Source: Methylobacter sp.
GTDB lineage: Bacteria > Pseudomonadota > Gammaproteobacteria > Methylococcales > Methylomonadaceae
Direction of reading: 5' to 3'
Length of the DNA stretch: 64,000 bases
Assembly (NCBI GenBank): GCA_030699385.1
Contig: JAUYMY010000057.1
Location: forward strand, 124,001-188,000
Under the pieces are notes generated by a model. The model was not told where the DNA came from and did no database searches. It saw nothing but the letters and a program-made list of their open reading frames with translations. Every line of letters starts with the position of its first letter. Within the stretch, counting starts at the first letter, position 1. A program made the position numbers and the translations under genes. Shown in pieces: positions 19,879 through 31,762 of this stretch.

Positions 19879-20571
19879 ATGGCCGATCATAACAAACCGC
19901 CGTCAAACGCTTTGGCAAAGAAATCGTTAAACTTTATCAGCGGTTTTCTCTCTAAAAAAATGCGTAGCGTTTATTACAGCGCAAGGGAATCTATTGGCGA
20001 ACATAAACGCGATATTGTGGTTGTTCATGTCGAGCAGGCTTGTGTGGGCTTGCAGGAAACCCGGAATGAGTTTGAAGATGCGCTGGAGCGCTTTAAGACG
20101 CTGGTTTGTGTCAATGAAACCACGTTGGATCACAAATATAATCTGCTGAACCGGCAGTATCAGTTTTGTTGTGCTAAATCCGAATCTGTCAGTTACAGAA
20201 TTCGCGCGATTGAAGGGGTTAGCGAAGCGCTGTTTGCCGAGTGGGAAGGCGAACTCAAGGAATATACTAACCGTAATTTGCGCGCCCACAGCAAGCAGCA
20301 ACTTAAACTGGCGCGGCAAAATTATGTCCGGCTGATTAAATCTATGCAACGGGCAGAGGCTAAAATACAGCCGGTATTGGCGGCATTCAAGGATCAGGTG
20401 TTGTATTTGAAGCATAACCTTAATGCCCAGGCTATCGCGGCATTAAGGCATGAGTTTATTGAAATTAGCATTGATATTTCACAGCTTATCAATGCCATGG
20501 AGCAGACCATCGCCGAGGCAAGTCAGTTTGTCGCCGTATTGACTGAGCAAAAAGCCTTGCCGGGTCGGTAA
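19879..20571 (+). CDS. DUF2959 family coiled-coil protein
   Basis: The 230-residue protein matches the DUF2959 pattern: IGEHKRDIVVVHVEQA, an acidic heptad-like region, ALFAEWEGELKEY, LIKSMQRAEAKIQPVLAA and FKDQVLYLKHNLNAQAIAAL. It is largely alpha-helical and soluble, without a lipobox. It begins with SLNFISGFLSKKMRSVYYSA, which may be amphipathic. The function of the family is unknown; it is common in marine gammaproteobacteria. It is convergent with the lipoprotein gene, with one base between their ends. Confidence 0.75.
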   Translation: MADHNKPPSNALAKKSLNFISGFLSKKMRSVYYSARESIGEHKRDIVVVHVEQACVGLQETRNEFEDALERFKTLVCVNETTLDHKYNLLNRQYQFCCAKSESVSYRIRAIEGVSEALFAEWEGELKEYTNRNLRAHSKQQLKLARQNYVRLIKSMQRAEAKIQPVLAAFKDQVLYLKHNLNAQAIAALRHEFIEISIDISQLINAMEQTIAEASQFVAVLTEQKALPGR

Positions 20572-20572
20572 T

Positions 20573-20995
20573 TTAGAGCTTGTAGAGTACGTCGTTAGCT
20601 TTATCTTTAGGGTCGGCTTTGGCTTTATGGTTATCCTGATCAAGCCTTTCCTTGCCGAATTCGGAAATCATTTCGTCCCAATTGGCGTATTTTTCATAGC
20701 CGGGAAACCCTGAGTTTTTCCGTTGTTGAAAAAGCTCTTTGCCTATTACGATCAGCTCTTCAGGTTTTTGGCCGTCAACCGTGTTAAGAAATTCTTTTTC
20801 ATCTTTAATCGAATCACGCAGCATCCAGAAGGAAACTTCAAACTCAATGCGCGTTTCGGGCGGCAGGCGATTTTTTAATGCACTGACCGAACGGTATGCG
20901 GTGCGTGTGGTATGGCCGTTGATTTGTGAACCCTTGCTGCATGCGATTAACGATGTGCAGCAGAGAATGAGCAGAAGAATGGGTGTTTTCTTCAT
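20573..20995 (-). CDS. Small lipoprotein (DUF6694-like)
   Basis: A lipoprotein signal peptide with lipobox LIAC at residues 16-19 is clear, followed by a 120-residue charged helical domain with SVSALKNRLPPETRIEFEVSFWMLRDSI and LIVIGKELFQQRKN. The middle resembles DUF6694 lipoproteins, but I am not certain. The product should be anchored in the outer or inner membrane facing the periplasm. Function unknown. Confidence 0.6.
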   Translation of the reverse strand: MKKTPILLLILCCTSLIACSKGSQINGHTTRTAYRSVSALKNRLPPETRIEFEVSFWMLRDSIKDEKEFLNTVDGQKPEELIVIGKELFQQRKNSGFPGYEKYANWDEMISEFGKERLDQDNHKAKADPKDKANDVLYKL

Positions 20996-21124: not shown

Positions 21125-22879
21125 ATGCTGGAATTTATCCAATTATTAAAACAACGTTATCAGGCGGTTTTAGGCGACCTGCCTACGCGTTCCTACGTTA
21201 ATGACGCGGTTAAAACAAGCTATCAGCGGCGGATCGATCAGTTGCTTTTGGTTGAAGCCTTCATCCGCAAAGGGCAGTTGATTGCGGCATCGGAGCAGCC
21301 GGTGTTGCATATCGCGGTGGTGGGGCCAACCCAGGCCGGTAAAAGTTCGCTGAGTAACCTGTTATTAAACAGCCATGTAGCCGGCGTCAGTCCGCTGGCG
21401 GGTTATACCGTCCATGCGCAGGGTTTTTGCAATGGCATCAGTATTGACGACTGCAACGGCCTGCAACGCTATTTTGGCCGTTTTCAGCAGTTGCCGCAAA
21501 ACCAGCTCAGCAAAGACCGCCACGATTGCTATGCGCTCACCGAAAACACCACGGATTCGGCCTTGTTGCCGTCTTGCGTTTTGTGGGACACGCCTGATTT
21601 CGATTCGATAGATTCAACCACTTACCGCGAAGGTGTGATCAGGGCGATGGCCTTGGCGGATGTGATTATTCTGGTGGTCAGCAAGGAAAAGTACGCCGAT
21701 CAGTCGGTGTGGGACATCATGGCGGCTCTTGAGCAACTGCAGCAACCGACGCTTATTTGCCTGAATAAAGTGGTTGAAGGTTCCGAGACCATCCTGCTCA
21801 AATCGTTACAAGATAAATGGCGGCAAGCCAGAGCCGACAGCTTCCCCGAAGTGGTGCCGCTGTATTATCAAAAGCCGGGCGGACAGCCGGAGTGGCCGGA
21901 AGCTAAGCGCCAGCTGCTGAAAGCGGTGGCCCATAAAGTAAACCTGAATCAACATGCAGTCCTTGAACAAGCGCTATTGAAAAAACACTGGCAAAGTTGG
22001 CTGGAGCCGGTGCTTGCCGAGCATCAAATGCTTAATGATTGGCTTGAATTGGTTGATTTAATGATGCAGCAGGCGATGGAAAATTATCGGCGCGATTATT
22101 TGAACCATCCGCATCATTATGAAACCTTTCAACTGGCGATGACCGAATTGCTCAATCTGATGGAAATACCCGGTTTGGCGCGCATCCTGAGCGGTGCCCG
22201 TAAAATGCTGACCTGGCCGGTTCGGCAGGTGATGAAATTGGGGCGGAAAAGGCTGCATATTTCAAGCAGCAGCTACGAACTCGCGCTGTTAAACCAAATA
22301 GCCGAACATACGCTGATTCAGCTGACCGACAAACTGCTGGATAAGGCCGAGCAAAGTCAGTACAGCCAGTGGTGGCGGCAAGTCAATAGCGGTTTGCGCG
22401 CTCAGCGACAGGCGCTGTTGCAGGATTTCGATGCGGCGGCAAAACACTATCATTTGTCGTTTCAGCAGGATGTGGAAAGCGCCGCGCATCGTTTGTATCA
22501 CAAACTGCAGGAACAACCGATGGTGTTGAACAGCTTGAGGGCGACCCGTGCGACCGCCGATGCCGCCGTGATTGCCCTGACCTTGCAAATGGGCGGCATC
22601 GGCCTGCATGATTTGGTCATCGCCCCTGCAATGCTGAGCGTGACGTCGCTGTTGGCGGAAAGCGCGGTGGGCAGCTACATGCACAAGGTGGAAGCCGAGC
22701 TGAAACAAAACCAATTCAACACCGTTAAACAGGCGTTATTTGTCGAAATCCTGCGTGAAAAACTCTTATTAGTGCCCGGACAATTATCGATGAACGGCCA
22801 TTTTAATATCTCTCCTGACCAGCTCCGTGCGGCCGAGCTACAACTGACAGAAAAGCGCCATGGTTTACGATTACTCTAA
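21125..22879 (+). CDS. Dynamin-like large GTPase A
   Basis: The 584-residue protein has a G domain with P-loop GPTQAGKSS (67-75), G3 motif DTPDFDS (155-161) and G4 NKVV (214-217). A long helical region follows, with a hydrophobic stretch near 485-540 (VIALTLQMGGIGLHDLVIAP), like the membrane paddle of bacterial dynamin-like proteins. The G3 motif departs from DxxG. Its last 20 bases overlap the start of the second GTPase gene, so the two are translationally coupled and the proteins probably work together. No recognised named family member; the function is unknown, with membrane remodelling or membrane-stress response as the general expectation for such pairs. Confidence 0.75.
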   Translation: MLEFIQLLKQRYQAVLGDLPTRSYVNDAVKTSYQRRIDQLLLVEAFIRKGQLIAASEQPVLHIAVVGPTQAGKSSLSNLLLNSHVAGVSPLAGYTVHAQGFCNGISIDDCNGLQRYFGRFQQLPQNQLSKDRHDCYALTENTTDSALLPSCVLWDTPDFDSIDSTTYREGVIRAMALADVIILVVSKEKYADQSVWDIMAALEQLQQPTLICLNKVVEGSETILLKSLQDKWRQARADSFPEVVPLYYQKPGGQPEWPEAKRQLLKAVAHKVNLNQHAVLEQALLKKHWQSWLEPVLAEHQMLNDWLELVDLMMQQAMENYRRDYLNHPHHYETFQLAMTELLNLMEIPGLARILSGARKMLTWPVRQVMKLGRKRLHISSSSYELALLNQIAEHTLIQLTDKLLDKAEQSQYSQWWRQVNSGLRAQRQALLQDFDAAAKHYHLSFQQDVESAAHRLYHKLQEQPMVLNSLRATRATADAAVIALTLQMGGIGLHDLVIAPAMLSVTSLLAESAVGSYMHKVEAELKQNQFNTVKQALFVEILREKLLLVPGQLSMNGHFNISPDQLRAAELQLTEKRHGLRLL

Positions 22880-24473
22880 TTTGCTGGCAACCGCAAAACA
22901 CTGGGCAGAACAGGCGCAGGCAGCGGGCTGGATTAATGCTGATGCGGCGCAGCCATTAAATGCTATTGATGCCAGAACACCGGATACCTTGTTTAACCAT
23001 AACGGTTCCAGGCCGCTGATTGTCGCCTTCATGGGTGGCACCGGCGTGGGTAAAAGCACCTTGCTGAACCGGTTGGCAGGCAAGGCCATCGCCAGAGCCG
23101 GCGTCGAGCGGCCCACGTCGCGCGAAGTCACCTTATTTCATCATGTGAGCGTGGCGATAAAGCATTTGCCGGAACAACTGCCGCTGGCGCAAATTAAAAT
23201 CGTTGAACATGACAACGCGGCGCGGAAAAATGTGATCTGGATTGACATGCCCGATTTTGACAGCACCGAGCAAAGCAACAAACACCAGGTGTTGGAATGG
23301 TTGCCGCATATCGATGTGCTGATTTATGTGGTCAGTCCCGAACGCTACCGGGATGAAAAAGCCTGGCGCTTGTTGCTGGCGGAAGGCGGCAAACATGCCT
23401 GGTTGTTTGTGCTGAATCAGTGGGATAGAGGGCAGGGCGAGCAATATGAAGATTTCAGGCGGCAACTGCATAAAGCCGATTTTGCCGATCCGGTGATCTT
23501 CAAGACCGCTTGCGTCGAAGGTCTGCAAAGCGATGAATTTGCCGCATTGGAATCGACCATTAGCGCGTTGGCAACCGAGCAACTTATTGGCCAACTGGAG
23601 CAACGCAGCAGCCAGATCAAAAAAGACGAACTCAAACAAAGTCTGCACACTATTGGCGAATCATTGGGTTCCGCCTCAGTTTTTCAACAATTGCCGACCT
23701 TGTGGCAAGAGCAATGGCAGCGTACTGCCGACGTGCTGCAACAGGGTTTTGCCTGGCCTATCCAGCAATTGGCGCGCCACTATGCCGATCATGCCGCCGA
23801 TTTATTGCATAACCCGGCCGCCAAATACGCAGCAACCGGCGTTAAATCTAGCTTATGGGACGATTGGGCCGAAGCCCGCTTTGACGATGCGCTGGATGAA
23901 TTTGTTAGCAATGTCGACCAGTTGGGGCTTCCCGTTCATCCGCTTAAAAATCAACTGTCCGCGTTACGCGAAAAAGCCCCCAAAATCATCCAGGCACAAA
24001 GCGAATTAGCCGCCAGACAAGCCTTGGCGAATCCCGGCAACGCCTTGCAACGCGGTTTTTTAAAGTTTATGCGTCTTTGTGAAATCATCCTCCCGCTTGC
24101 CGCCATTTGCTGGGTCGGCTATCAGGTTTTCATGGGCTATTACACAAGCAGCACATCTAACGTAAATTATTTGGGCGTCGATTTTGCGGTACACAGCAGC
24201 CTGTTAATCGCCATCACCTGGCTGACGCCGTTTTTCATCCTGAAAAAATTAAAGCCATCGTTGGAAAAAAGCGCGCTAAAAGGCTTAAACAAAGGCTTAA
24301 ATAGCGCTATCAACAGCATAAATGACGACATGTTGCAGATTATTGAAAACGTTGGCAATCAGCATGCCGAGCAGATCAAACAACTAGGCGGAATTATTGA
24401 ACATTGCGGCGTTATCGACCGGCAAACATCAATAGACAGCGACAGCCCACTGACCCGGATGCTGATTGATTAA
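22860..24473 (+). CDS. Dynamin-like large GTPase B with C-terminal membrane segments
   Basis: The 537-residue partner has P-loop GGTGVGKST (59-67), a G3-like DMPDFDS and G4 NQWD. Both GTPases share the unusual PDFDS switch II. A helical middle region leads to two transmembrane segments at about 400-425 (CEIILPLAAICWVGYQVFMG) and 440-465, then an amphipathic tail (KSALKGLNKGLNSAINSIND). It should be anchored in the inner membrane with the G domain in the cytoplasm. It overlaps GTPase A by 20 bases and converges with the SPFH-like gene 32 bases on. Confidence 0.75.
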   Translation: MVYDYSNLLATAKHWAEQAQAAGWINADAAQPLNAIDARTPDTLFNHNGSRPLIVAFMGGTGVGKSTLLNRLAGKAIARAGVERPTSREVTLFHHVSVAIKHLPEQLPLAQIKIVEHDNAARKNVIWIDMPDFDSTEQSNKHQVLEWLPHIDVLIYVVSPERYRDEKAWRLLLAEGGKHAWLFVLNQWDRGQGEQYEDFRRQLHKADFADPVIFKTACVEGLQSDEFAALESTISALATEQLIGQLEQRSSQIKKDELKQSLHTIGESLGSASVFQQLPTLWQEQWQRTADVLQQGFAWPIQQLARHYADHAADLLHNPAAKYAATGVKSSLWDDWAEARFDDALDEFVSNVDQLGLPVHPLKNQLSALREKAPKIIQAQSELAARQALANPGNALQRGFLKFMRLCEIILPLAAICWVGYQVFMGYYTSSTSNVNYLGVDFAVHSSLLIAITWLTPFFILKKLKPSLEKSALKGLNKGLNSAINSINDDMLQIIENVGNQHAEQIKQLGGIIEHCGVIDRQTSIDSDSPLTRMLID

Positions 24474-24505
24474 TCAAAGGTCGGCGCTCAATATCTGCCT
24501 ATAGA

Positions 24506-25774
24506 TCAATCGGGAAGAGCCGTTTTTTTGGCGTCTTTTATCGACAATTGCAGCTCTAAACGCTGTTTTTCAAGCTCCAGCAATTCAATTTCACGGCGCA
24601 GATAAACATCGGCTTCCTTTCTGTTGTCATAGCTTTCCCTTTGCATGTCCAGCCGTTGCTGTTCCTGGCGCTTTTTGTTCTCGACATCGGCGTCGAATTC
24701 CAGTTGTTTTTGCCGCTGTTCGTAGGCGACTTGTTCGGCATGGAGCTTGTCTCTGGATTCCCGCCAGCGCGCCTGCTGGAGTTCATGTTTGGCAATATCC
24801 GCCTCCAGTTCTTTTTCTTTTAATTTAGCCTGATGCGCCAATAATTCCGCGTGAGTTTGTTGTTCTGCAAGCCGCTGGCGAGTTTCTTGTTTTTGCTGTT
24901 CTTCAAGCTCCACTTCCAGGCTGATGGCTTTTAGGCGGTTTTCGTGTTTGACCTTTTCGGCATGGAGGCGCTGTTCAATGTCAAATTGTGCCAACTGCTG
25001 CTGTTCCTGTTCCTCAAGCAAGCGCTGTTTGTTTTCGGCATCCTGGGCTTGCCTTAAACGTTCGAGTTCGGCCTCGTGATTGAAGTGTTCCAGTTGCTGT
25101 TGTTTATGTTCGAGTGCTTGTTTTTCAAACTCTTGTTGCTGATGGAATAATTCCTCTCTTTTGGCTTCATTAAACTCAAAACTTCTTTTCAGTACGCATA
25201 AATAAACCCGTTCCTGCGCCAACTGCACCTCGGGGAATTCTGCAAATACCGGCTTTAAGGTGCAGAGTGTTTGCGATTGTATATTTTGCAAGATCAGTGT
25301 CTCACTGACCTCCAGCGCGATTTTCTGTTCAATCTCGCTGACGCCTTTTAGTACCCAGCTACCGTCGGCCAATTTAAGCAACTCCTTGTCGATTAAACTG
25401 ATCAGTACATCGTGATAGGTGCTTTTTATATGCGCGTTCAGTTCTGTCAGGATGTCCATATTGCTCAGCGCATATTTCAAACTGGCCTGAAAACGGATTT
25501 CCAGGTTCACGTCAATGCTGCAAAAACCATCATAAAGGCTGATTTTTTGAGCCAGCTGCCAGCTTTCAATCGGCAACGGATAAACTTTGTGATAAAAGCG
25601 TTTAACAAAACCTTCGGGGCGTAAAAACAAACGCCAGTAAGGGCCGATTTTGGTATAGACGAGGTGGCGGTCGGCGTCAAAAACCGGCTCCCACACCTGC
25701 GGGAACGCGGCATCATCGCGCGCCAAGCCACCGTCAATAAACCAGTTATCAATGTCGGTTCTGGCGCTATTCAT
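24506..25774 (-). CDS. SPFH-like protein with long Glu/Gln-rich coiled coil
   Basis: About 422 residues. The first 190 form a globular domain with YDGFCSIDVNLEIRFQ, then LNAHIKSTYHDVLISLIDK and a DGSWVLKGVSEIE segment. The order beta strand-NxE-strand-helix resembles the SPFH/band-7 domain of flotillins. From about 190 to the end it is one continuous coiled coil rich in Glu, Gln and Arg (EEQEQQQLAQF, ELLELEKQRLELQL). No signal peptide or membrane segment. The ATG at 25774 overlaps the upstream stop as ATGAATAG; a longer frame to 25795 is possible. The SPFH assignment is an inference. Confidence 0.6.
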   Translation of the reverse strand: MNSARTDIDNWFIDGGLARDDAAFPQVWEPVFDADRHLVYTKIGPYWRLFLRPEGFVKRFYHKVYPLPIESWQLAQKISLYDGFCSIDVNLEIRFQASLKYALSNMDILTELNAHIKSTYHDVLISLIDKELLKLADGSWVLKGVSEIEQKIALEVSETLILQNIQSQTLCTLKPVFAEFPEVQLAQERVYLCVLKRSFEFNEAKREELFHQQQEFEKQALEHKQQQLEHFNHEAELERLRQAQDAENKQRLLEEQEQQQLAQFDIEQRLHAEKVKHENRLKAISLEVELEEQQKQETRQRLAEQQTHAELLAHQAKLKEKELEADIAKHELQQARWRESRDKLHAEQVAYEQRQKQLEFDADVENKKRQEQQRLDMQRESYDNRKEADVYLRREIELLELEKQRLELQLSIKDAKKTALPD

Positions 25775-27026
25775 GGCTGTCGGCCTGTTTGGCAAGGCTT
25801 GCTTCGGCTTTTAATAGGTTAATTCTGTCGCCCATTTTTTCGGCAATCAAGGGGTAAAGATTGGGCGCAAATTCCACCGTTCTGTCATCTATTTTTCTTA
25901 AAAAACCCCGGCTTAACAATAAGCCAACCGCAAACATTCTCGACCAGTCGGAATAGCGTTTGGCGCGCTCAATTTCGGTCTTTTCGATGACCATTTCCAG
26001 CTCGTTGTTTTTATTGATACGAAACTCGGTGAACTGCCTTAAACATTCAAAAACCAGATTTTCTTCTTCGCTGGTCAACGGGCCGGGCGCGGTAAATTCA
26101 AGGCGATAGGACAGCAACACGGTAAAAAAATCAACCATCGCGGCACAGACAAAGGCGAACAGGGAAAAATCCGACCACATTGCGGCCGAAGGCTGCACAT
26201 CGGCGGTAAATTGTTTGTAGGTCATTAATAATGGTGCTTCCGGCAACGAACGCCCAATAGGGCCGGATAGCAAATTTATCTTCAATTGCACAGCCTGGAA
26301 GTTTTCCAGCATTGCCGCATAGGCGGCTTCAATATTGACCGCGACATCGAGATCATTGATGCTGGCTTGCAGCTTTTGCACATCCTTGTCCAGCTCGGCA
26401 AAGTCATGATCGAATTGCGTTTGCTGCTGTTTTTTCTCCTGATACATCTGGTTGTAATGTTTCCAGAACGGCCCTTCGCCGACTTGGTGTTTGTAGCCTT
26501 CAATGATTTGCGCATGGGTGCCGAAATAGGCCTGCGACACTTCCAGCGCTGCTTTTTCCAACTCGGCATGTTGTTGTTTTAAAACTTCGCTTTTAATCGC
26601 CAAGACCTGGTCTACATAAGACTTTACCTCGGTTCTGATTTGGTTCAGTCGGTTGATGTGCAGCGTGTCCTGCTCGGAAATTTCATAAAACTTGAAATAA
26701 GAAAATGACACCGATGCCATCAGCGCAATGAACAGCGAACAGACCACGGAAAAATAGCGTAGGCGGTTGGCGCGCCAATGCATACCGGCGATTTCCAGCG
26801 AACAAATGACCACAATCGACTGAATGGCAACAGTGATGACCAGTGCAATCCACGGTGTGATGAAATGGGATAAGCCGTAATAGGTGGTGAAACCTGATGC
26901 GACGCTCAACATCAACACAATCGGTATCGTCCATATTCTTAACAAGCCGACAAACAAGGTTTGTATGCTATTAATCAAATAGCCCACGCCGGAAGCTCTT
27001 ATTTTGGAGAATTCGGAAGTTTTCAT
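25767..27026 (-). CDS. Inner-membrane protein with large coiled-coil loop
   Basis: The 419-residue protein has three N-terminal transmembrane segments (about 25-50, 56-78 and 88-110), a helical coiled-coil region (115-265) rich in Gln and Lys, a fourth segment near 292-312 (LFAFVCAAMVDFFTVLL) and a C-terminal cytoplasmic part. The last resembles a winged helix (MFAVGLLLSRGFLRKIDDR). I recognise no family. Its stop overlaps the start of the SPFH-like gene by eight bases, so the two are coupled and presumably form one complex. It faces the GTPase pair. Confidence 0.65.
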   Translation of the reverse strand: MKTSEFSKIRASGVGYLINSIQTLFVGLLRIWTIPIVLMLSVASGFTTYYGLSHFITPWIALVITVAIQSIVVICSLEIAGMHWRANRLRYFSVVCSLFIALMASVSFSYFKFYEISEQDTLHINRLNQIRTEVKSYVDQVLAIKSEVLKQQHAELEKAALEVSQAYFGTHAQIIEGYKHQVGEGPFWKHYNQMYQEKKQQQTQFDHDFAELDKDVQKLQASINDLDVAVNIEAAYAAMLENFQAVQLKINLLSGPIGRSLPEAPLLMTYKQFTADVQPSAAMWSDFSLFAFVCAAMVDFFTVLLSYRLEFTAPGPLTSEEENLVFECLRQFTEFRINKNNELEMVIEKTEIERAKRYSDWSRMFAVGLLLSRGFLRKIDDRTVEFAPNLYPLIAEKMGDRINLLKAEASLAKQADSHE

Positions 27027-27155: not shown

Positions 27156-28784
27156 CTAATAAATAATCTTTTGCTCTTTCAACGTGTTGTAAATGCTGTC
27201 AACATCGACGGCATCGGTATCGAAACTAATATCCGCCAAGTTAGCGCTGTAATTGACGCATAAACAAATCAATCCGGCATTTTTGACCGCGACAATCAGC
27301 GAGGTGTTTTGGGTTTCCAACACGGTCACGGCATGACCGTTATCAAACAGTTTTCGTTCCAGTTGATAAGCAACGTCTTTACTGTCTGGGCCGGTCAGGG
27401 CAATCGCTGTCGGGTGTTGGCTAAAGCGCGCGGCGCGCTCTTCAGGGCTGACCGGTTGCAGGCTTTCTTCTGTTTCGGTGCTGCCGGTAATCATGCCCGC
27501 GCCAACGGTGCTGTTGCTCAAGCGGTCGATGATAATGAAAGAACCGGTGCCTTTGTGGCTCAGATAGGCATCGAAAACCACCGGCGCGTTGACTGAAACC
27601 GTACAGGCGCCAATTTCATTCAAATGCAATTCGGTGGCGTCATGGTGTTCCAGGGTGTTGACATCGATCCTATGGTGAATCATAGAGATAGAACCCGGCA
27701 CACTGCGCGTCGCCAGTTTGATGATGTATTGCTTGCCCGGAGTCAGCGCATTTTCGGCCATCCAGACGATGGTGGCTTTGAATTTGTCTGAAACGGTGGG
27801 CGCGGTTTGTTCGCTGCCGATAAGGGTATCGCCACGGCTGATGTCGATTTCGTCTTCCAGCGTCAAGGTGACTGCCATCGGCGGGAAAGCCTGTTCCAGT
27901 TCGCCGTCGTAAGTCACGATAGCTTTGATCTTGCTGCTTTTACCGGAGGGCAGCGCGGTGATCTTGTCGCCTTTTTTGAAAATGCCGGATGCCACCGTGC
28001 CGCAAAAGCCGCGAAAATCGAGGTTGGGGCGGTTAACGTATTGCACCGGAAAACGCGCATCGTCAAAATTGCGGTCATTGGCGATTTCTATGCTGTTTAG
28101 CGCTTCCATTAATGGCTGGCCGCTAAACCAAGGCATGTGCTCGCTGGGATTAACCACGTTGTCGCCGTCCAGCGCCGACATCGGGATAAAGGTGATGTCC
28201 TGTAACGCCAGCGACTGGGTAAAATCTAGGTAATCCTGTTTGATTTTTTCAAAGGTGGCTTCGCTGTACTCAACCAAATCCATCTTATTGATCGCAACAA
28301 TAATATGATGAATGCCCAGCAACGAGGCGATAAAACTGTGCCTTTTGGTTTGGGTCTGCACGCCGTAACGCGCGTCGATCAGGATAATCGCCAAATCGCA
28401 GGTTGACGCCCCCGTAGCCATGTTGCGGGTGTATTGTTCGTGCCCTGGGGTGTCGGCAATAATGAACTTGCGCGTCGAGGTCGAAAAATAACGATACGCC
28501 ACGTCAATGGTGATGCCCTGTTCGCGCTCGGCTTGCAGGCCGTCGACCAGCAACGCCAAGTCGATTTTGCCGGCGCCGGTGGTGCCGGATTTGACGCTGT
28601 CAGCCTGCACGGCAGCCAATTGATCTTCATAGATCATTTTGGAGTCGTGCAAAAGGCGGCCGATCAAGGTGCTTTTGCCGTCATCGACATTGCCGCAGGT
28701 TAAAAAGCGCAATAATTCCTTGCGTTCGTGTTGCGCCAAATAGGCGTCAATATCGGTGCTGATTAAATCGGATTGGTGGGACAT
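27156..28784 (-). CDS. cysN: Sulfate adenylyltransferase subunit 1 with a degenerate APS-kinase tail
   Basis: CysN is the GTPase subunit that drives APS formation from sulfate and ATP by CysD. The G motifs [19 protein letters not shown] and NKMDL are intact, followed by EF-Tu-like domains 2 and 3 (to about 450). Residues about 457-542 resemble a shortened APS kinase: [20 protein letters not shown] aligns with its first strand, P-loop and helix. The P-loop GxxGxGKST has been lost and only about 86 of 190 residues remain, so kinase activity is not expected. AGGAAACCCC precedes the ATG. It is separated from cysD by two foreign-looking genes. Confidence 0.93.
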
Positions 28785-28831: not shown

Positions 28832-29452
28832 TTAACGGGATAAAGTAAGAAATTTTGCTGGGTCGTTAAGAACCTCGACTAGCTTTTTAGCGTAAGTGCT
28901 GTTTGCAATAACTTTATGAGCATCTATTTTTCCCAGAATTTCAAAAGAATGTCCGCCTTTGTCATATTTGCCCTTAGTGGTATCACAAGTAGCCTTTTTC
29001 AAAGTATCTTCTAATATTTTTTTAGAAATATCTTCTGGATTCAAGTTGCCTGATAAAGCATTTTTCTTAAACCCTTGACCATAATAATGAGTAAGCGATT
29101 CTTTATCAGCCATAAACCAAGCTTCCATACATTCGACCATAAAATGTAAATGTTTTTCAGTCGCTTTATCTGGTTTTGACCACTTATCCCCTTCACGTAA
29201 AAAGACGTGTTGCCAAACACTCGGACTATTAACAGGGGCTTCGCTATCAACCAATAACAAGCAATATTCATTGTTCCTGGTATTTTTCAAGCCAATACAA
29301 AAACTATCGTAGGCATTTTGACGGCTTCCGCAAGCAATAATTTTGGGTTTAAAGTTTAACTTTTTAAAAAACTCGCTAAACCCTTGCCGACATTTCGTTC
29401 TTAAAGTATTGGTATCACCGCCGCCCTCAACATAGATTGTAATTTTTACCAT
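28832..29452 (-). CDS. DUF4276 (TOPRIM-like) protein
   Basis: The 206-residue protein begins [18 protein letters not shown] and has [11 protein letters not shown] some 80 residues later. These are the Glu and Asp-x-Glu positions expected of a TOPRIM-like metal site in DUF4276. A conserved [14 protein letters not shown] helix and the [17 protein letters not shown] segment complete the family pattern. Its ATG overlaps the ATPase stop by seven bases. Such pairs resemble OLD, PARIS and RloAB-type ATPase-nuclease systems. Base composition is AT-rich, unlike cysN. Nuclease or RNA-cleaving effector function is an inference. Confidence 0.75.
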
Positions 29453-30666
29453 CTATTACCGCCGAGCTCGCCTCTACGCCATAACTGCCCTAATCTATAA
29501 TCTTTTAACCAATCGCTCAATTCAGCCCTATCCAAGCGATTAACGGTCGTTGAGCCTTGGGCTTTATCAAATACCAATACCGCTTCCGGCATATCGGTTA
29601 AATCATCAATTAAATCAGCCGAATGCGTGGTAATAATGATTTGGGTTTTTTGTGCGGCTTTTTTCAATAAATCGATTAAGGTCGGCAACACATCAGGATG
29701 CAAACCTAATTCTGGTTCTTCTATACAAATTAAGGGGGGTGGATTTGGGTGTAATAAAATTGCTAATAACGAAAGATAACGTAATGTGCCGTCTGATAAT
29801 CGGGAAGCAGGAATACTAAAACTATTTTCTTCAAAAAAGACTTGTATATATCCACCTTGAATAATGACATCAAAATCATAAATACTTTCATTAAATAGTT
29901 TTAATGCGTCTAATAGTTTTCTTTTTACTTCACTATTGCGGCGAAAACTATTTAGAATTAACCCTAAATTACTGGTATTTTCTTCTAAAAAATCATTAGG
30001 TAAATCGGCTCGTTGTAAATTTCTTGGTGCTGCACTACGCCCAAATTGCCATTCCCGATAAAGCCGTATTTTTTCATAATAATTACTCAAATAAGCCATC
30101 TCTGGATAAGCATCACGGTCTTGGCGTTGCGCCAGAATTGATTGATTAGTTTCAATATTTTCCCAATCTAATTCCCTTCGATTATCTACTCCTTGATTAA
30201 TAACTGCGTCCCGTGCATTATTCTTTAATCGGTAATAATAATTGAAAAATTTTTTGTTAGTTCCGTATTCTGTTCCTACAATCTCCCTAATATATTCTCT
30301 GATAACTTCTATGCGATAATCCATCGCACGAAATTCTAAGGTATGCTCAATTGGCTCTCTAATGCTGTACACAATTGAGTTTTCAATATATTCAGGTTCG
30401 TGACAATCATAGGGATTTTCGATAATCGCTTCTATTCTAACAGAATGATTCTTTTCACCTTTCCATAACCATTCTTCAATACCGCCGCCATCACGTATTA
30501 CTTTACCTAAATCCTTAGGCATAGCCTGCAATAAACTAATCGCTTCAATTAAATTAGATTTACCAGAACCATTTGCACCAATCAGTACATTTAAACCCTT
30601 ATTAAAGCTAATCTCAGTTGTCGCACCAAAGGACAATAAGTTAGTTAGTTTGATCGTTTTTAACAT
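29446..30666 (-). CDS. AAA/ABC-type ATPase (AAA_21, OLD-like)
   Basis: The 406-residue protein starts MLKTIKLTNLLSFG, the usual beginning of SMC/RecF-like ATPases. It has Walker A GANGSGKSN (about 34-42), a signature-like SRLSDGTLRY, Walker B LICIEEPELGLHPD and the switch histidine TTHSADL. The insert between Walker A and the signature is long and helical. The ATG at 30666 lies four bases after the cysD stop; the frame upstream belongs to cysD sequence. It is coupled to the DUF4276 gene. The DNA is strikingly AT-rich: 15 of 60 bases are G or C at 29881-29940 against 38 of 60 at 28561-28620 in cysN. Confidence 0.85.
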   Translation of the reverse strand: MLKTIKLTNLLSFGATTEISFNKGLNVLIGANGSGKSNLIEAISLLQAMPKDLGKVIRDGGGIEEWLWKGEKNHSVRIEAIIENPYDCHEPEYIENSIVYSIREPIEHTLEFRAMDYRIEVIREYIREIVGTEYGTNKKFFNYYYRLKNNARDAVINQGVDNRRELDWENIETNQSILAQRQDRDAYPEMAYLSNYYEKIRLYREWQFGRSAAPRNLQRADLPNDFLEENTSNLGLILNSFRRNSEVKRKLLDALKLFNESIYDFDVIIQGGYIQVFFEENSFSIPASRLSDGTLRYLSLLAILLHPNPPPLICIEEPELGLHPDVLPTLIDLLKKAAQKTQIIITTHSADLIDDLTDMPEAVLVFDKAQGSTTVNRLDRAELSDWLKDYRLGQLWRRGELGGNRW

Positions 30667-30670
30667 GGTG

Positions 30671-31579
30671 TTAAAAATAACCTTCGCGTTTTTTCTGTTC
30701 CATAGAACCGGATTGGTCATGGTCTATCAGTCGCCCCTGCCGCTCAGATGTCGTAGTCAACAGCATTTCTTGGATAATTTCCGGCAGCGTGGTGGCGGTT
30801 GATTCAACCGCGCCGGTCAGCGGATAACAACCCAAGGTGCGGAATCGCACCATTTTCATTTCCACTTTTTCGTCGGGACCAATCGGCATACGCTCGTCGT
30901 CAACCATGATTAACATGCCGTCGCGTTCAACTACCGGGCGTTCTTTGGCGAAATACAGCGGCACGATGGGGATGTTTTCCAGATGGATGTATTGCCAGAT
31001 GTCCAGCTCAGTCCAGTTCGACAGCGGGAACACGCGGATGCTTTCGCCTTTGTCGATTTTGCCGTTGTAGATGTTCCATAATTCCGGGCGCTGGTTTTTG
31101 GGGTCCCAGCGATGGTTCTTGTCGCGGAATGAATACACCCGTTCTTTGGCGCGCGATTTTTCTTCATCGCGCCGTGCGCCACCGAAGGCGGCATCGAATT
31201 GGTGTTTATCCAGCGCTTGTTTCAGGCCGTCGGTTTTCATCACGTCGGTGTGTTTTTTGCTGCCGTGGGTAAACGGGCCAATGCCTTGGGCGACGCCGTC
31301 CTGGTTGATATGCACCAGCAACTCAAGCCCCAATTGCTTGACCAGTTGGTCGCGAAATTGGATCATTTCTTTGAATTTCCAGGTGGTGTCGACATGCAGC
31401 AGCGGAAATGGCGGCTTGCCGGGATAAAAGGCTTTCATGGTCAAATGCAGCATCACGGCGGAGTCTTTGCCGACGGAATACAACATCACCGGGCGTTCAA
31501 ATTCGGCGGCAACTTCGCGGATAATATGAATGCTTTCAGCTTCCAGTTGTTTGAGGTGGGTCAGTTTATAATCAGTCAT
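30671..31579 (-). CDS. cysD: Sulfate adenylyltransferase subunit 2
   Basis: CysD adenylylates sulfate to APS together with CysN. It has the PP-loop motif [15 protein letters not shown], the [10 protein letters not shown] strand, [16 protein letters not shown] and the C-terminal [23 protein letters not shown] (read as its two halves). ATG 31579 gives 302 residues, the same as E. coli CysD; a frame to 31609 lacks conserved residues. Four bases after its stop the foreign ATPase gene begins, so cysN expression must read through two extra genes. Confidence 0.96.
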
Positions 31580-31762
31580 TAAAAGTCCGTCAGGGTTGGG
31601 GCAGGCCAAGTCTATTGAATACGCTCAACAAATAAAGCCGGTCATTTTAATTTGAACAGGCGTTTAATGCCAGATTTGCTTGGGATTTATTCAGCATTGA
31701 GCTGATCAGGCGAATTTTTGCAACGAATCGGCCCAAACGATTGCCCGCGAAACACACCAAGC

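Follow-up and report, generated by a model that had tools for sequence, protein, structure and literature searches.

Two pairs of overlapping genes face each other in the window analysed here, a stretch of 64,000 nucleotides from Methylobacter sp. (contig JAUYMY010000057.1): those of two large GTPases, A and B, and those of a membrane protein, M, and an SPFH-like protein, S (Table 1). The initial annotation had proposed that the four proteins act together as one membrane-remodelling or membrane-protection machine. The question addressed here is whether the locus holds one unit of four genes or two units of two genes each.

Table 1. Features of the A-B/M-S locus and its upstream flank (positions in the window).
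Feature	Position	Strand	Description
DUF2959 protein	19879..20571	+	
140-aa protein	20573..20995	-	lipoprotein-like N-terminus (presumed); divergent from A
GTPase A, 584 aa	21125..22879	+	putative divergent dynamin-like partner; G3 = DTPD, G4 without the usual Asp
GTPase B, 537 aa	22860..24473	+	mitofusin/BDLP-like (predicted), two hydrophobic helices
Gap, 32 bp	24474..24505		meeting point of A-B and M-S; absent from the nearest relative, G020
S, 422 aa	24506..25774	-	divergent SPFH protein (predicted fold), 230-residue helix, no hydrophobic anchor found
M, 419 aa	25767..27026	-	membrane protein with a charged stretch among four hydrophobic segments; C-terminal part conserved

The genome of the window consists of 84 contigs, of which C71 contains the window, and is 87.8% complete. 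The overlap of 20 bp between A and B, which are read in the same direction, was confirmed. M and S overlap as well, with one change of start codon: an earlier reading had used a TTG at 25795 from the open reading frame (ORF) list, and the start that is commonest in the relatives of S, with an 8-bp overlap with the stop of M, corresponds in the window to the ATG at 25774, which appears to be the best start. According to the same ORF list, the stop codons of B and S are 32 bp apart. Each of the four proteins is conserved in 33 to 35 genomes of a set of 41 relatives (the window's own genome included), so that the observation is not due to chance; weak matches in one further genome (G003; match of B, 9.7e-4) were left out of these counts.

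The GTPase pair A-B

Motifs were compared in an aligned set that comprised 29 sequences of A and 28 of B; for each protein, 12 of these were from outside the order Methylococcales. The P-loop is invariant throughout. The PDFDS switch II that had been noticed in both GTPases was borne out as part of an invariant D-x-P-D-x-D-S (29/29 A, 28/28 B), in which the glycine of G3 is an aspartate in both proteins. The canonical G3 motif is DxPG; as both partners carry DxPD, A-B departs from a plain pair of bacterial dynamin-like proteins (DLPs). The aspartate of G4 is kept in B as N-x-x-D in all 28 sequences. In A, the aspartate of NKxD is present in three of the 29 sequences, and the A of the window has a valine.

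Both proteins gave GTPase or dynamin-type matches in Pfam, NCBIfam and PADLOC. The Pfam family Dynamin_N (cut-off 27 bits) was matched by B above the cut-off (28.5 bits) and by A below it (25.4 bits); A also matched MMR_HSR1 (4.2e-10). When the profiles of A and B were compared, only the G-domain region could be aligned (173 columns, probability 97.9). Sequence searches of the PDB (phmmer and profile) with A and B returned only short and weak matches, the majority of which covered the P-loop region in GTPases such as Der and Era.

In the predicted model of B (pLDDT 82.5, pTM 0.68), a G domain is combined with helices drawn from the two ends of the chain, and two long helices are hydrophobic; the model thus shows the G domain plus helical bundle of the dynamin superfamily. 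Two predicted hydrophobic segments (401-419 and 438-456) lie within the long helices, in agreement with the membrane anchors initially ascribed to the second GTPase; A has one weak hydrophobic segment (481-499), outside its G domain. In a Foldseek search with the B model, BDLP, IniA and the Cj-DLP pair were ranked first. Comparison by VIA-align gave Z scores of 21.1 for Fzo1 and 20.5 for mitofusin 1 (rmsd 3.4-3.5 over 283-286 residues), 18.1 for an EHD ATPase, 15.7 for IniA and 14.4 for BDLP, the last two being no better than those of unrelated GTPases (up to 15.9). Because IniA and BDLP are level with unrelated GTPases and Fzo1 and mitofusin score higher, the mitofusin arrangement is the closest to the predicted fold of B. 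Mitofusin 1 and Fzo1 share with the model the packing of helices from both protein ends; they differ in being eukaryotic, in that the solved chains are truncated, and in sequence (11-14% identity to B). The coupled dynamin-like pair of the initial annotation is thus upheld for B by its predicted fold; A is presumably dynamin-like too, to judge from its G domain and its pairing with B.

Gene pairs are the usual arrangement among bacterial DLPs, as stated in an excerpt of PMC6104087. Cj-DLP1/Cj-DLP2 of Campylobacter jejuni (5owv, 5oxf) resemble A-B in that two genes for dynamin-like GTPases lie side by side, and they are among the first Foldseek hits of B. In contrast to this likeness, no sequence match to Cj-DLP1/2 was obtained in the phmmer and profile searches of the PDB, B has two hydrophobic helices, and the DxPD switch II is present in both A and B. 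By analogy with Cj-DLP1/2, the chromosomal pair A-B would most likely form a heterotypic complex at the inner membrane, to which the mitofusin/BDLP-like B would be anchored by its pair of hydrophobic helices and to which A would contribute an unusual nucleotide-binding site. Such a complex might tether, fuse or patch membranes using GTP.

The pairing of A with B is constant. The genes adjoin in 35 of 35 genomes that have both among the 41 relatives (own genome included). In a sample of 184 genomes of the class, A and B were found in the same 15, adjoining in 15/15; 13 of these belong to the 182 genomes from outside the order. Within the order, A is present in 187 of 201 genomes; once families f7 and f8 are set aside, this is 187 of 190. 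It also occurs in small genomes of about 1.7-2.1 Mb.

This distribution, together with the resemblance of the B model to membrane-fusion dynamins, would suit a role of A-B in shaping the intracytoplasmic membrane stacks in which particulate methane monooxygenase resides, with M-S perhaps as an accessory scaffold; the biogenesis of the stacks is stated to be unknown in an excerpt of PMC9445010. However, any core gene will follow all the traits of its clade, and a PF02461 gene is present in nine of the 11 genomes of f7 and f8 that lack A, so the distribution of A-B in the order is a lead on the membrane stacks and not a result. A-B also occurs in the 13 genomes of the class outside the order. 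M is absent from five genomes with a PF02461 gene (G274, G333, G260, G227 and G231), for which reason M-S was rejected as an obligatory companion of the particulate methane monooxygenase. On balance, a role of A-B in shaping the stacks is considered unlikely.

The genes next to A were compared at 18 loci of the order, the window included. A homologue of the 140-aa protein, the N-terminus of which we take to be lipoprotein-like from its motif, lies beside A at 12 loci, and a DUF2959 homologue is found near A at nine. By this recurrence, the two genes are better candidates for partners of A-B than M-S. Outside the order, ubiA precedes A at four of 12 loci (L061, L063, L066 and L071), with a pyridine nucleotide oxidoreductase gene nearby. 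On the far side of M, a candidate defence pair was detected with PADLOC as HEC-01 (DUF4276 and AAA_21; 28832-30720, reverse strand; HEC-01 B 1.8e-76, A 1.3e-155). It sits between genes reading as cysN (27156-28784) and cysD (30671-31609); the same pair lies between the cys genes in the nearest relative, G020 (L042), and is absent from between them in L043, L044 and L059.

A-B might instead be an anti-phage or envelope-stress system in the manner of DynA or LeoABC. LeoA of PADLOC matches both A (4.2e-8) and B (1.8e-7), and LeoBC matches A (3.2e-7, residues 58-218); the HEC-01-like pair is about 4.4 kb away from B, and DynA is described as delaying phage lysis in an excerpt of PMC8844932. Against this, a full-length match to LeoA or LeoBC was not found: the best stretches are A 40-82 (LeoA) and 58-218 (LeoBC) and B 46-75 and 54-73, those with LeoA being confined to the P-loop region. 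A-B is, moreover, near-universal in the order, the gene beside A at the four loci named above is ubiA, and searches of 72,556 plasmid and 50,697 phage records yielded no full-length relative of B. On the latter searches, A-B was rejected as a mobile defence system. We regard the anti-phage or envelope-stress reading as improbable; a more general stress role for A-B is possible.

The membrane protein M and the SPFH-like protein S

S had been described as an SPFH-like protein with a coiled-coil stretch of 230 residues. Its model (pLDDT 80.5, pTM 0.42) agrees with this and consists of a beta/alpha part (37-177) and a single helix of 230 residues (188-417), to which the low pTM is perhaps due. The 22 best PDB hits of the model in Foldseek are all SPFH entries, 12 with E values of at most 0.001, and the region therefore does not read as a different fold. 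In a second structure comparison, flotillin and prohibitin chains were matched with Z 10.0-10.6 at large rmsd (10 to 37). The SPFH core alone matched stomatin with Z 8.5 (rmsd 3.4 over 108 residues), a score that ties with those of unrelated folds (dihydroneopterin aldolase, 8.4). The family is not apparent from sequence profiles: 63 aligned relatives of S gave no match to the Pfam SPFH/Band 7 model (13 families matched, E up to 0.1), and the S of the window matched nothing in Pfam or PADLOC at E up to 1 and a single NCBIfam family weakly (0.59). No segment of S exceeds the hydropathy threshold, so no hydrophobic anchor of its own was found. By its modelled structure, S is a divergent SPFH protein followed by a long helix.

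The four membrane segments expected in M were found as predicted hydrophobic segments (24-42, 59-77, 91-109 and 280-298); a charged stretch, the putative coiled coil of the initial annotation, separates the last two. The M of the window has only weak family matches in Pfam, NCBIfam and PADLOC (best, 0.014) and no match to NfeD at E up to 1; nor is NfeD among the matches listed for the relatives of M (25 of 63 weak families). A distant likeness to DUF4407 (PF14362) is seen in about a third of the relatives (21/60 at E up to 0.1, best 2.5e-6), the M of the window itself being unmatched. Sequence searches of the PDB with S and M gave no match at E up to 1.

S adjoins M in 32 of the 33 genomes with M among the 41 relatives; in the exception (G016) the two are on different contigs. 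A scan of named genomes confirmed 149 relatives of M, the best 80 of which were used to compare the M-S loci. S follows M in 79 of these 80, and the contig ends at the remaining locus (L082). The coupling of a membrane protein to an SPFH protein, identified as such by its predicted fold, is hence supported. The best 80 are mostly from Methylobacter, Methylomonas, other Methylococcales and methanotrophic symbionts; the others carry broad labels (proteobacterium, Gammaproteobacteria, bacterium), apart from two labelled Bacteroidetes. In the latter, contigs of metagenome-assembled genomes (L107 and L109), M has 71-72% identity and S adjoins it; they are probably methanotroph contigs that were binned wrongly. 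M was found in 139 of the 201 genomes of the order. In the class sample of 184 genomes, M and S are present in two, both from the order and one of them that of the window; as far as seen, M-S is confined to that order. No full-length relative of M was found on the plasmids searched.

Two known arrangements are comparable. YdjI of Bacillus subtilis is an SPFH protein without a membrane anchor that depends on YdjG/H, as given in an excerpt of PMC8581546, and its gene likewise lies beside those of the membrane proteins that recruit it; the operon differs from M-S in that it encodes PspA and two membrane proteins. In SPFH-NfeD pairs, of which QmcA-YbbJ is an example (8z5g, the 17th-ranked Foldseek hit of S), the genes of an SPFH protein and of a membrane protein share an operon. 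M differs from NfeD proteins, which are mostly 140-150 aa long in the excerpted part of PMC2636767, in its length and in the missing NfeD match. M would hold the anchorless S on the membrane, much as YdjG/H hold YdjI, and S held in this way may oligomerise into a scaffold. For M-S as for A-B, the complexes, membrane sites and activities that we infer follow from analogies of this kind.

Linkage of the two pairs

That the four genes would be neighbours across genomes was not borne out. Neither A nor B was found at any of the 80 M-S loci (best 80 of 149 relatives of M; flanks up to 10 kb, often less). In 43 other genomes in which A and M are on one contig, the spacing is at least 23 kb and reaches megabases. 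The expectation that the pairs occur in the same genomes was not borne out either. Outside the order, A-B was found in 13 of 182 genomes of the class, and M and S were found in none. Inside it the pairs do share many genomes, A and M occurring together in 136 of 201, which is a point in favour of a joint machine. Further genomes of the order have A only (51, among them the single-contig assemblies G274, G260 and G227), M only (three, all drafts) or neither (11). All 11 genomes with neither belong to families f7 and f8; among the 190 genomes outside these families, A stands alone in 51, M stands alone in three, and none lacks both. The association of A with M thus comes down to one or two clades: A occurs without M in 51 genomes, and both are missing only in f7 and f8. 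In the Methylomonas-like genus g177, the pairs are 23-25 kb apart in five genomes and 23-30 kb apart in seven. The 136 shared genomes and the 23-25 kb spacing in g177 make some ancestral linkage of A-B with M-S possible.

The junction between B and S was compared with the nearest relative, G020, in which B is 97% identical to that of the window and the two pairs lie on different contigs, each beside other genes. A tmRNA gene directly follows B in G020, G021 and G011 (L025, L026 and L027); in the window's genome the tmRNA is on another contig, C34 (L157), and in G019, of the same genus, it is also away from A-B. After S, G020 has genes that we take from their translations to be lepA, lepB, a small gene, rnc and era. 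Both sides of the junction match the relatives right up to it. As the tmRNA follows B and the lepA-like gene follows S in G020, the abutment of B and S in the window is local. A reciprocal product was not found: the 20 kb around the tmRNA of the window's genome contain neither A-B nor a substantial match to the DNA after S in G020 or G021. The 32-bp gap is either a rearrangement point or a contig join.

These observations are probably best explained by two independent pairs, dynamin-like A-B and the SPFH-scaffold pair M-S, that lie tail to tail in the window through a local rearrangement or a contig join. A single machine of A, B, M and S, for which the abutment in the window, the shared genomes of the order, the spacing in g177 and a synthetic phenotype of DynA and FloT in Bacillus subtilis (excerpt of PMC3551649) could be cited, is very improbable and was rejected on the neighbourhood of the pairs and the taxonomic range of A-B compared with that of M-S.

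It had also been stated that no system with this set of proteins is described. This needs qualification with respect to DynA and FloT: for a dynamin-like protein, a genetic link to a flotillin of the same cell is already in print. DynA is a single protein, and no gene neighbourhood is claimed in the excerpt of PMC3551649. In the open-licence PMC literature, neither pair is described in methanotrophs in the titles and abstracts among the matches listed.

Possible meaning for methanotroph membranes

Treating the locus as its two true units avoids work on a joint system for which the comparison of genomes gives no support. Of the two, M-S contributes an SPFH protein missed by Pfam and paired with a membrane protein whose sequence is not that of NfeD. 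The invariant DxPD in both partners and the rarity of the G4 aspartate in A mark A-B as a putative dynamin-like pair with an altered nucleotide site. That A-B is a dedicated, mitofusin-like heterotypic pair which shapes the stacks in methanotrophs of the Gammaproteobacteria, M-S being an accessory scaffold of the SPFH type in that order, seems more doubtful still than a role in the stacks as such. If A-B does act on the inner membranes of methanotrophs, it would be a concrete candidate for the biogenesis of the methane-monooxygenase membranes discussed in the excerpt of PMC9445010.
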